From NCBI GenBank assembly GCA_945787335.1, contig CALZHR010000222.1:1-64000 (forward strand): a stretch of 64,000 nt of DNA, in the 5' to 3' direction. Source of the stretch: an uncultured Desulfuromonadales bacterium. Its GTDB lineage: Bacteria; Desulfobacterota; Desulfuromonadia; Desulfuromonadales; Geopsychrobacteraceae. Positions 3,516 through 48,236 of this stretch are shown piece by piece. Position numbers and translations under genes: made by a program. The stretch's first letter is position 1. Every line of letters starts with the position of its first letter. Below the pieces are notes generated by a model that ran no database searches, was not told the DNA's origin, and worked only from the letters and a program-made list of their open reading frames with translations.

Positions 3516-3556
3516 GCCCCATTCCGGACCTCCTCCCGGAGTGGGGCGCTTTTTTT
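3516..3556 (+). terminator. Intrinsic terminator of lutCB
   Basis: A 12-bp stem (GCCCCATTCCGG against CCGGAGTGGGGC, one G-T pair) is followed by seven T residues, 45 bases after the lutB stop. Confidence 0.9.
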
Positions 3557-14483: not shown

Positions 14484-14619
14484 CGTCTCCATCTGTCCCC
14501 CGGGACCCTAAGGCCGGCAGGGCAGGAATTGGCACCAGACGCCTGCTGAACAATCGTGTCAGCGGCCGGTTGCCGTGGCTTCGCAGGGCCTTTTCCCTCC
14601 ACCACTCTGGATAAAGACG
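14484..14619 (-). ncRNA. SAM-I (S-box) riboswitch aptamer
   Basis: The minus strand carries the S-box core: 'TTTATCCAGAGTGGTGGAGG', 'GGCCCTGCGAAGCCACGGC' and 'GGTGCCAATTCCTGCC'. P1 is a 10-bp helix of CGTCTTTATC (14619-14610) with GATGGAGACG (14493-14484). The aptamer binds S-adenosylmethionine. With the downstream terminator it should switch metX off when the ligand is abundant. Confidence 0.93.
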
Positions 14620-17082: not shown

Positions 17083-17401
17083 CAGGTCCCCTTCGTAATC
17101 CGACCGAGTTGGGCAATGTTAATAAACTAGAATCTTTGAATACTATAATGTTGTGGGAAAACATGCAAGCAGGGGATTGTCTGTCGCGCCGCTTTTTTCT
17201 TCAGGTTTCAGAAAACAGACGGCGGCTGCTTAAAATTTCAGCTGCTGTGGCTAAATGTTGTGCAGTCTGTCGGCGGGTCCTGTGCCTGGGTGCCCATTTT
17301 CTGCGCTGTGTGAATCAGGCATGGCTATTGAATGAGCAGGCTGGCCGTCAAACAATGATGTTGGCGATTATCCTGAACGAAGAAGACGAGGAGGTCTTTT
17401 C
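17083..17401. other. Intergenic region upstream of amt
   Basis: These 319 bases separate divergent receptor and amt genes. A TATAAT-like box lies near 17144 without a convincing -35 partner. I looked for a sigma-54 -24/-12 element and found none with correct spacing. A reading frame running through the region has no ribosome-binding site or recognisable product. Confidence 0.5.
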
Positions 17402-18616
17402 ATGGAAGCATCAATTGCGACCCTGCAGCGCGGCGGGGATGTGCTGTTCCTGCTGCTTGGAGCGGTCATGGTTTTCGCCATGCACGCCGGTTTTGCCTTT
17501 CTGGAGGTTGGCACGGTTCGCGAGAAGAGCCAGGTCAATGCCTTTGTAAAAATTCTCTCCGACTGGTCGGTCTCGACCGTTGTCTATTTCTTGATCGGTT
17601 ACCCGATTTCTTACGGGGTTCATTTTCTGCTGCCGGCCTCCGAGCTGATGGGCGGTAATCAGGGGTATGAGCTGGTGCGGTTCTTCTTTTTGCTCTGCTT
17701 CGCCGCCTGCATCCCGGCGATCATTTCCGGCGGGATCGCCGAGCGCGCCAAGTTCTGGCCGCAGGTGGTCGCCGGGGCGATCTTCGCCGGCATCTCCTAC
17801 CCGATCTTCGAGTCGCTGATCTGGGGGCAGAACAGCGCCGGGCTGCAGGGCTTCTTTGAGTCGACCTTCGGCGCACCCTTTCATGATTTCGCCGGCAGCG
17901 TCGTGGTTCATTCCATCGGCGGTTGGCTGGCCTTACCGGCGGTCTTGATCCTCGGCCCGCGGCTGGGGCGTTTCGTCCGTGGCCGCAGCCAGGCGATCCC
18001 GATCAGCAACATCCCGTTTCTGGCCCTGGGGAGCTGGATTCTGGCGGTTGGCTGGTTCGGGTTCAACGTCATGAGCGCCCAGTCGCTGGAAGGGATTTCC
18101 GGGCTGGTGGCGGTCAATTCGCTGCTGGCCATGGTCGGCGGCGTGCTCTTCGCTCTGGTCGCCAGCCGGAATGACCCCGGCTTCGTACACAACGGCGCTC
18201 TGGCCGGGCTGATCGCCATCTGTGCCGGTTCCGACCTGGTGCACCCGATCGGGGCCTTCTTTGTCGGCGGGCTCGGCTCGCTGATTTTCGTTTACGGGTT
18301 CCAGGTCGAGCAGGAAAAGCTCAAGATCGACGATGTGCTCGGCGTCTGGCCGCTGCACGGGGTGGTCGGCACTTGGGGCGGGATTGCCGCGGGGATCTTC
18401 GGTACGACCGCTTTCGGCGGGATGGGCGGTGTTTCTTTCATGTCGCAGCTGGCCGGCAGCCTGCTCGCCGTCGTCTATGCCCTGGTCACCGGATTTGCTG
18501 TATACAAGGCAATCGACACGGTCTCCGGCTTCCGTCTGGACGAAGAACAGGAGTTCGCCGGGTCCGATTTAAGCGTGCACAAAATCAACGCTTATCCGGA
18601 GGAGAATGTGAAATAG
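17402..18616 (+). CDS. amt: Ammonium transporter
   Basis: The 404-residue membrane protein is a full-length Amt/Mep/Rh channel for ammonium uptake. It has the family landmarks 'GAVMVFAMHAGFAFLEVGTVR', 'DFAGSVVVHSIGGW' (first pore histidine), and 'GVWPLHGVVGTWGG' (second pore histidine), with about eleven membrane helices. The ATG at 17402 is preceded by GAGGAGG. The usual partner glnK is not next to it, so PII control would have to come from elsewhere. No regulatory site was identified with confidence. Confidence 0.93.
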   Translation: MEASIATLQRGGDVLFLLLGAVMVFAMHAGFAFLEVGTVREKSQVNAFVKILSDWSVSTVVYFLIGYPISYGVHFLLPASELMGGNQGYELVRFFFLLCFAACIPAIISGGIAERAKFWPQVVAGAIFAGISYPIFESLIWGQNSAGLQGFFESTFGAPFHDFAGSVVVHSIGGWLALPAVLILGPRLGRFVRGRSQAIPISNIPFLALGSWILAVGWFGFNVMSAQSLEGISGLVAVNSLLAMVGGVLFALVASRNDPGFVHNGALAGLIAICAGSDLVHPIGAFFVGGLGSLIFVYGFQVEQEKLKIDDVLGVWPLHGVVGTWGGIAAGIFGTTAFGGMGGVSFMSQLAGSLLAVVYALVTGFAVYKAIDTVSGFRLDEEQEFAGSDLSVHKINAYPEENVK

Positions 18617-18655
18617 TCCGCAAATGTGGTTAGCTTAAATTAATGGGATACGCGT

Positions 18656-18683
18656 TTGACAGTCTGCCTTGGGGGGGTACAAT
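18656..18683 (+). promoter_or_regulatory. Strong promoter of a putative small RNA
   Basis: TTGACA (18656-18661), a 16-base G-rich spacer and TACAAT (18678-18683) form a near-consensus sigma-70 promoter. No protein-coding gene in the same direction follows for 700 bases. Confidence 0.7.
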
Positions 18684-18689
18684 GGCTGC

Positions 18690-18777
18690 AGAAGGTCGAA
18701 CGTTTACAGGAGGCAGTGGCAGCCTCCTGCTTTACCCTGGACGACCTTATCCCTCCTGGTCTCCAGGGTATTTTTTT
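18690..18777 (+). ncRNA. Candidate small RNA with two hairpins and intrinsic terminator
   Basis: From the predicted start near 18690 the transcript would be about 88 nt. Hairpin 1 is CAGGAGGC (18707-18714) with GCCTCCTG (18722-18729), loop AGTGGCA. Hairpin 2 is TACCCTGGA (18733-18741) with TCCAGGGTA (18762-18770), extended by GACC/GGTC, and is followed by seven T residues. Its loop TTATCCCTCCT contains CCCTCCT, the complement of a strong Shine-Dalgarno sequence. There is no ORF with a ribosome-binding site. The layout (promoter, folded body, terminator, isolated between amt and a convergent rrf2 gene) is that of a trans-acting small RNA. I do not recognise it as a known family. Confidence 0.6.
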
Positions 18778-18841: not shown

Positions 18842-19276
18842 TTACGCGGTGTTCCGTTGCGCCAGCTTGAGTTTTTCGCGGCGGACCAGTTCGGCGACGC
18901 TATAATTCTGCAGGACCCTGATCATCTCGTTCTGCGCCTCGTTCCAGACATCGTGGGCCGGGCAATGTTCGTCACGGGAGCAGCTGCCATCGTCGACCAG
19001 GCAATGATTCAGTTTCAGCGGTCCTTCTTCGGCTTGCAGGATATCGAGCAGGGTGATCTCGCTGGGGTTTTTGGCCAGAAGAAAACCACCGCCGACGCCC
19101 CGTTGCGAACTGACGATGCCACTTTTGATCAGCGGTTGCAGGATCTTGGTGAGAAAAGCCGGGGTGACCTCCTGAGTCCGGCAGATGTCCTTTTTCAAAA
19201 CGATTTCATCTTTCGGCTGCTGGGCCAGAAAGATCACGGTGCGAATTGCATATTCTGTCGCTCGTGTAATAACCAC
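18842..19276 (-). CDS. Rrf2-family transcriptional regulator with three-cysteine cluster motif
   Basis: The 144-residue protein is a winged-helix Rrf2 regulator ('ITRATEYAIRTVIFLAQQP', 'FLTKILQPLIKSGIVSSQRGVGGGFLLAK'). Three cysteines in C-x6-C-x5-C spacing ('HCLVDDGSCSRDEHC') match the region where IscR, NsrR and RsrR bind an iron-sulfur cluster, so redox or NO/iron sensing is likely. The GTG start at 19276 is chosen because GGAGG precedes it and the helix-turn-helix begins at once. It stands alone; no isc or suf genes are near. The targets are unknown, and autoregulation is possible. Confidence 0.88.
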   Translation of the reverse strand: MVITRATEYAIRTVIFLAQQPKDEIVLKKDICRTQEVTPAFLTKILQPLIKSGIVSSQRGVGGGFLLAKNPSEITLLDILQAEEGPLKLNHCLVDDGSCSRDEHCPAHDVWNEAQNEMIRVLQNYSVAELVRREKLKLAQRNTA

Positions 19277-19309
19277 ATTGTCCTCCACGATAGTTAACTT
19301 GCAAAGTAA

Positions 19310-19338
19310 GGAATACACTGAAGCAAAGAGCTTGTCAA
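19310..19338 (-). promoter_or_regulatory. Promoter of the Rrf2 gene
   Basis: On the minus strand TTGACA (19338-19333), a 17-base spacer and TATTCC (19315-19310). Just downstream ACTTTGCAAGT is a short inverted repeat that might be an autoregulatory operator. Confidence 0.55.
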
Positions 19339-47843: not shown

Positions 47844-48236
47844 TGGCCAAAGAAGGACAGGTGATCGCCGGTTCGCCCTTGGGCGGGCGGGAGGAAAGTC
47901 CGGGCTCCACAGGACAGGATGGTCCCTAACGGGGACCGGGGGCAACCCCAGGGACAGTGCCACAGAGAGCAGACCGCCCGGCGCAGCCTCGGTTGCGGCG
48001 GGTAAGGGTGAAAGGGTGAGGTAAGAGCTCACCAGTTTCGGCGGTGACGTCGAAAGCTAGGTAAACCCCATCCGGAGCAAGGCCGAATAGGGGAACGTTT
48101 GAGGATGGTCCGTCCAAAGTTCCCGGGTCTGGCCGCTTGAGACCGTCGGCAACGGCGGCCCTAGATGAATGATCATCACCCTGTTCCGGGTAACCGGGGC
48201 GGGGAACAGAACCCGGCTTACGGACTTCTTTGGCCA
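47844..48236 (+). ncRNA. rnpB: RNase P RNA, bacterial type A
   Basis: The approximately 393-nt RNA is the catalytic subunit of RNase P, which cleaves tRNA 5' leaders. P1 is TGGCCAAAGAAG (47844-47855) with CTTCTTTGGCCA (48225-48236). The conserved 'GAGGAAAGTCCGGGC' (CR I) is near the 5' end and 'GAACAGAACCCGGCTTA' near the 3' end, with the type A arms in between. A short T-run follows P1. Confidence 0.95.

Follow-up and report, generated by a model that had tools for sequence, protein, structure and literature searches.

The 64,000 nt stretch of DNA analysed here (the window), from an uncultured Desulfuromonadales bacterium, contains a putative small RNA locus. It is probably an autonomous gene for a trans-acting small RNA that would pair with Shine-Dalgarno sites through the loop of its terminator hairpin. 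Matches in relatives, the invariance of the loop and strong covariation place the predicted locus beyond chance. Sequence comparison showed a conserved promoter, structure and terminator with an invariant loop and, in most copies of the order, no adjoining same-strand downstream gene. As the RNA is constant, its neighbours change and it has a promoter and terminator of its own, the best interpretation is that of a small RNA acting in trans. If this is true, the RNA is a class-wide candidate translational regulator for Geobacter-type bacteria, few of whose small RNAs are understood, and laboratory species are available in which to delete and test it.

Locus and architecture

The features of the locus are given in Table 1. 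The promoter (TTGACA-16-TACAAT, 18656-18683) matched the consensus at 11 of 12 positions, and one such site was observed in a 401-base region compared to 0.1 expected in shuffles. From this promoter, transcription was predicted to start at approximately 18690, 7 nt after the -10 box. The RNA from 18690 to 18777 folded into two hairpins at -37.7 kcal/mol compared to a shuffled mean of -24.4 kcal/mol (z -4.0), with none of 200 shuffles folding as low. Hairpin 1 is formed by 18707-18714 pairing with 18722-18729, and the terminator stem by 18734-18746 pairing with 18758-18769. The terminator loop (18747-18757) is UUAUCCCUCCU, within which CCCTCCT was predicted to be unpaired with a probability near 1 in the window RNA; the mean unpaired probability of the motif was 0.97. 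The preliminary description of this DNA, which proposed a near-consensus promoter, an 88-nt folded body and a U-tailed terminator with CCCTCCT in its loop, standing alone between amt and a convergent rrf2 gene as a small RNA gene, agreed with these results on every one of these points. Two small ORFs over the RNA (59 aa at 18643 and 213 aa at 18656) were rejected on inspection only, with indels in homologs that misfit a conserved frame.

Table 1. Features of the predicted small RNA locus and its neighbours, in window positions.
Feature	Position	Strand	Basis and remarks
amt ammonium transporter, upstream neighbour	17402..18616	+	PF00909; context only
-35 box TTGACA	18656..18661	+	Promoter match; TTGAC retained in 49/71 homologs
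-10 box TACAAT	18678..18683	+	Spacer of 16 bases; equivalent to GgUAuAcU, with which the RF01733 consensus opens
Putative small RNA, ~88 nt	18690..18777	+	Fold z -4.0; 34/60 relatives; full-model likeness to RF01733; R1 67.9 bits
Hairpin 1, 8 bp, loop AGUGGCA	18707..18729	+	Compensatory stem changes; AGGAGG sequence not conserved
Terminator hairpin	18734..18769	+	Fold, terminator match, covariation
Unpaired loop motif CCCTCCT (putative anti-Shine-Dalgarno seed)	18751..18757	+	Identical in 71/71 copies; predicted exposed
U7 tail of intrinsic terminator	18771..18777	+	Terminator match
rrf2-type regulator, convergent downstream neighbour	18842..19318	-	PF02082; start codon uncertain; context only

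Conservation and covariation

The window RNA was matched in 34 of 60 relatives by blastn, and 71 distinct homologous copies were aligned. The CCCUCCU loop was identical in all 71 at a mean column identity of 56%; copies were collected partly by a CCTCC loop search, which favours the inner CCTCC, and all aligned copies had in addition been matched by blastn or a covariance model with no such filter. TTGAC of the -35 box was present in 49/71 homologs and the -10 box matched TATAAT at four or more of six positions in 69/71, with spacers of 16-18 bases. The terminator was intact in all copies. Within the family of the window's genome 98.6% of cells were paired and 28 cells carried two-sided changes, a number equalled in 0/500 shuffles. 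The other families gave 67 such cells (0/500 shuffles as high). These counts are inflated by sequence relatedness, and slid controls were far lower. Two-sided changes supported both stems. The preliminary description had called for covariation of both stems around a fixed CCUCCU loop and had made conservation of promoter and loop in close relatives decisive for its proposal, and both expectations were borne out. An upstream element, AATTAATT, was not retained as a feature; it is partly the end of the amt coding region and an AT-rich stretch and was present in part of the window's family.

It had also been proposed that hairpin 1 sequesters AGGAGG, which could pair with the terminator loop and give an RNA of two states. 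CAGGAGG of the window can indeed pair with CCUCCUG (7 bp), and at least six consecutive loop-complementary bases were found in 45% of stem 1 arms compared to 17% of shuffled arms. This switch is nevertheless extremely unlikely and was set aside. AGGAGG was present in the stem 1 arms of 11/71 copies and stem 1 covaried with its own 3' arm, varying between copies (AGAGGG, AGAAGG, GGAAGC, GAAGGCC) with the loop constant. The forced switch folded at -17.2 compared to -37.7 kcal/mol, a cost of approximately 20 kcal/mol.

Genomic neighbourhood

In the order, amt was upstream on the same strand in 33/67 copies and rrf2 was convergent with the RNA in 62/71 copies (58/67 in the main sets plus four further copies), usually with gluQ beyond it. 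The downstream same-strand gene of Geobacter-type loci was of 4Fe-4S type in 14/26 and folK in 6/26. Several genomes had extra copies of the RNA in unrelated contexts. The neighbours are weak evidence for function, since rrf2 is kept in the order and replaced in Geobacter-type families. The link to ammonium or iron stress suggested in the preliminary description has these neighbours, which change between families, as its sole basis.

The position between convergent genes and the good terminator at the end would also fit a mere terminator that serves both amt and rrf2, in which case the promoter match and the loop would be incidental. This is very unlikely, as the promoter, the covarying first stem and the invariant loop persist without amt and also without rrf2, and termination alone does not need a fixed loop sequence.

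Two further RNAs were predicted in the window, a SAM riboswitch (RF00162, 68.3 bits) at 14486-14617 on the minus strand and a class A RNase P RNA (RF00010) at 47849-48235 on the plus strand.

Relation to RF01733

No Rfam family matched the locus at gathering cut-offs. A permissive search identified the atoC RNA, RF01733, with model positions 1-93 aligned and a score of 32.6 bits compared to the 50-bit cut-off (E 2.6e-4 in a 251-base search). The cut-off was reached in nine genomes of the order, and Geobacter-type members scored up to 88 bits. Homology to RF01733 is continuous because the intermediates pass the cut-off and Geobacter-type members reach such scores. The window RNA is thus classed, on sequence likeness, as a divergent relative of RF01733, and the earlier statement that it belongs to no known family was replaced. 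The full-length alignment included the -10 box, the hairpin, the terminator hairpin with its CCCUCCU loop and the U tail. The window copy differs in scoring below the gathering cut-off, in the loop and length of hairpin 1 and in lying outside a cis-regulatory position, with no adjoining same-strand downstream gene.

RF01733 was described as a probable RNA and probable cis-regulator by Weinberg et al. 2010 (PMC2864571) and its Rfam type is Cis-reg. No experimental work on atoC RNA was found in the literature searched. A cis-regulatory leader, with the terminator controlling read-through into a downstream gene, would agree with that typing and with the 4Fe-4S-type or folK gene that follows on the same strand at Geobacter-type loci. 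It is, however, unlikely. The cis-regulatory label cannot hold in the order because the next gene is the convergent rrf2 in most copies, and downstream genes are unrelated between lineages. The terminator was intact everywhere and no conserved 5' partner for its arms was seen on inspection of the alignment. The consensus start of RF01733, GgUAuAcU, aligned with the -10 box of the window promoter, and therefore the catalogued motif includes promoter DNA. An RNA catalogued for more than 10 years as a cis-regulatory motif, part of whose conserved sequence is promoter DNA, appears to be an independent regulator. If so, RF01733 should be re-typed and widened.

Proposed mode of action

The inferred parts of the mechanism of this putative trans-acting small RNA are its transcription, mRNA pairing, repression, targets and signal and any role for Hfq. 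RNA polymerase would start near 18690 at the conserved sigma-70-type promoter and stop at the U7 tract. The product of approximately 88 nt would open with a short 5' tail, followed by one structural hairpin and then by the terminator hairpin, which would present single-stranded CCCUCCU. This motif, by its sequence, is complementary to Shine-Dalgarno sequences and would most likely pair with AGGAGGG-like sites of several mRNAs. Pairing would block ribosome entry, perhaps with Hfq, which is encoded in the window's genome and in 122/134 genomes of the order. The anti-Shine-Dalgarno role proposed for the loop in the preliminary description is in keeping with its complementarity, its invariance and the covarying stems, and the translation block itself is kept here as a prediction.

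Two characterised small RNAs resemble this arrangement. NfeR1 silences mRNAs at ribosome-binding sites through unpaired anti-Shine-Dalgarno motifs in hairpin loops (PMC10746234), and sX13 of Xanthomonas uses C-rich apical loops to repress mRNAs with start-codon-proximal G-rich motifs, with no need for Hfq (PMC3771888). The window RNA shares the unpaired anti-Shine-Dalgarno loop motif with the alpha-r14 / NfeR1 family (RF02344) and a C-rich loop, which would act on G-rich mRNA sites, with sX13 (RF02232). It has two hairpins and one CCCUCCU loop, whereas alpha-r14 of the Alphaproteobacteria has three hairpins each with CCUCCUCCC and sX13 has three stems with CCCC/CCCCC loops. Both models scored weakly on the window RNA (26.7 vs 58.8 bits for alpha-r14 and 21.5 vs 50 bits for sX13), placing it outside both families. 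By analogy, the best reading is that it works like NfeR1 or sX13, through predicted pairing.

A C-rich loop could also bind a protein. In a rival reading, the RNA would bind a CsrA-type protein through GGA or act as an Hfq sponge rather than act on mRNA Shine-Dalgarno sites. GGA is found in the first loop (GGACGC) of most families outside the window's own, and Hfq is present. This rival is quite unlikely, however, as the window's family has GUGGCA in place of the GGA loop and Geobacter-type members have lost that loop, whereas CCCUCCU is invariant. A CsrA sponge of the CsrB/CsrC type was rejected; the window RNA has no loop GGA and the loop 1 GGA of other families was not retained.

Targets of the putative trans-acting RNA were searched for. 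Counts of the extended complement CNAGGAGGGNAAG were close to those of the reversed control with no clear enrichment, and no target is claimed from them. The ribosome site in the amt leader, GACGAGGAGGTC (17385-17402), showed almost no variation within the window's family and is complementary to the small RNA loop and three flanking bases. It is possible from this complementarity that amt is a target, and pairing at the conserved AGGAGG site could be a generic anti-Shine-Dalgarno match. When pairing to the amt, rrf2 and gluQ leaders was compared, compensatory change between the amt site and the small RNA flank was seen in at most one case, which leaves amt as a lead only. A window-wide ranking of ribosome sites was uninformative, having used guessed start codons.

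Distribution

A covariance model built in this analysis (R1), on which the window RNA scored 67.9 bits, matched 212/277 genomes of the class in 66/82 genera, a few of these matches being the separate C40-type RNA described below. In a 395-genome sample of the phylum only two matches were outside the class, both near 31 bits. By sequence, the predicted small RNA family is confined to one class. An exact-pattern scan of approximately 85,000 species matched 78 contigs, nearly all Geobacter, Geomonas, Desulfuromonas or relatives by name. One contig labelled Chloroflexi had the same sequence as a same-genus contig of this set, and one was from Candidatus Moranbacteria.

The Moranbacteria contig (L254:6099-6205, 38% GC), which belongs to another phylum, has a terminator hairpin that is almost the same, GCCCTGGCGACTTGCCCTCCTAGTCGCCAGGGT. 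It is accompanied by a promoter-like TTGACA site and lies between genes resembling dnaK and grpE. Transfer, contamination or convergence are possible explanations of this copy. Two order members of family f4 (L071:2067 and L078:2068) have another stem, GCGCGCCTGG...CCGGCGCGC, with the loop TTTTTCCCTCCTGA, possibly related to the C117-type RNA below.

Other RNAs with C-rich terminator loops

Two further conserved and unrelated RNA candidates with C-rich terminator loops were identified in the window's genome. The first, at contig C117:16254-16384 on the minus strand (L159/L180), has a promoter-like stretch, an unpaired GGCAACAAACATT and a terminator loop containing CCCCTCCTGG. It was found in 19/60 relatives with the GGCAACAAACATT stretch conserved. 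The second, at contig C40:42423-42558 on the plus strand (L158/L192), is downstream of a sensor-kinase-like gene and was found in 22/41 relatives. It has a GAAAC...GTTTC hairpin followed by the terminator GCCCCGAAG with the loop CCCCCCCTCC. The terminator loops of both types were conserved, and neither type had an Rfam match at E 0.05. It is conceivable, as a tentative proposal, that at least three separate small RNAs (atoC-like, C117 and C40) with independent anti-Shine-Dalgarno loops jointly tune translation from shared mRNAs with strong Shine-Dalgarno sites.

Two of the 15 terminators found in the window contained CCTCC in the loop. The terminator at 3517-3555 on the plus strand follows a plus-strand reading frame, has the CCTCC loop ACCTCCTC and was found, weakly conserved, in 7/41 relatives.
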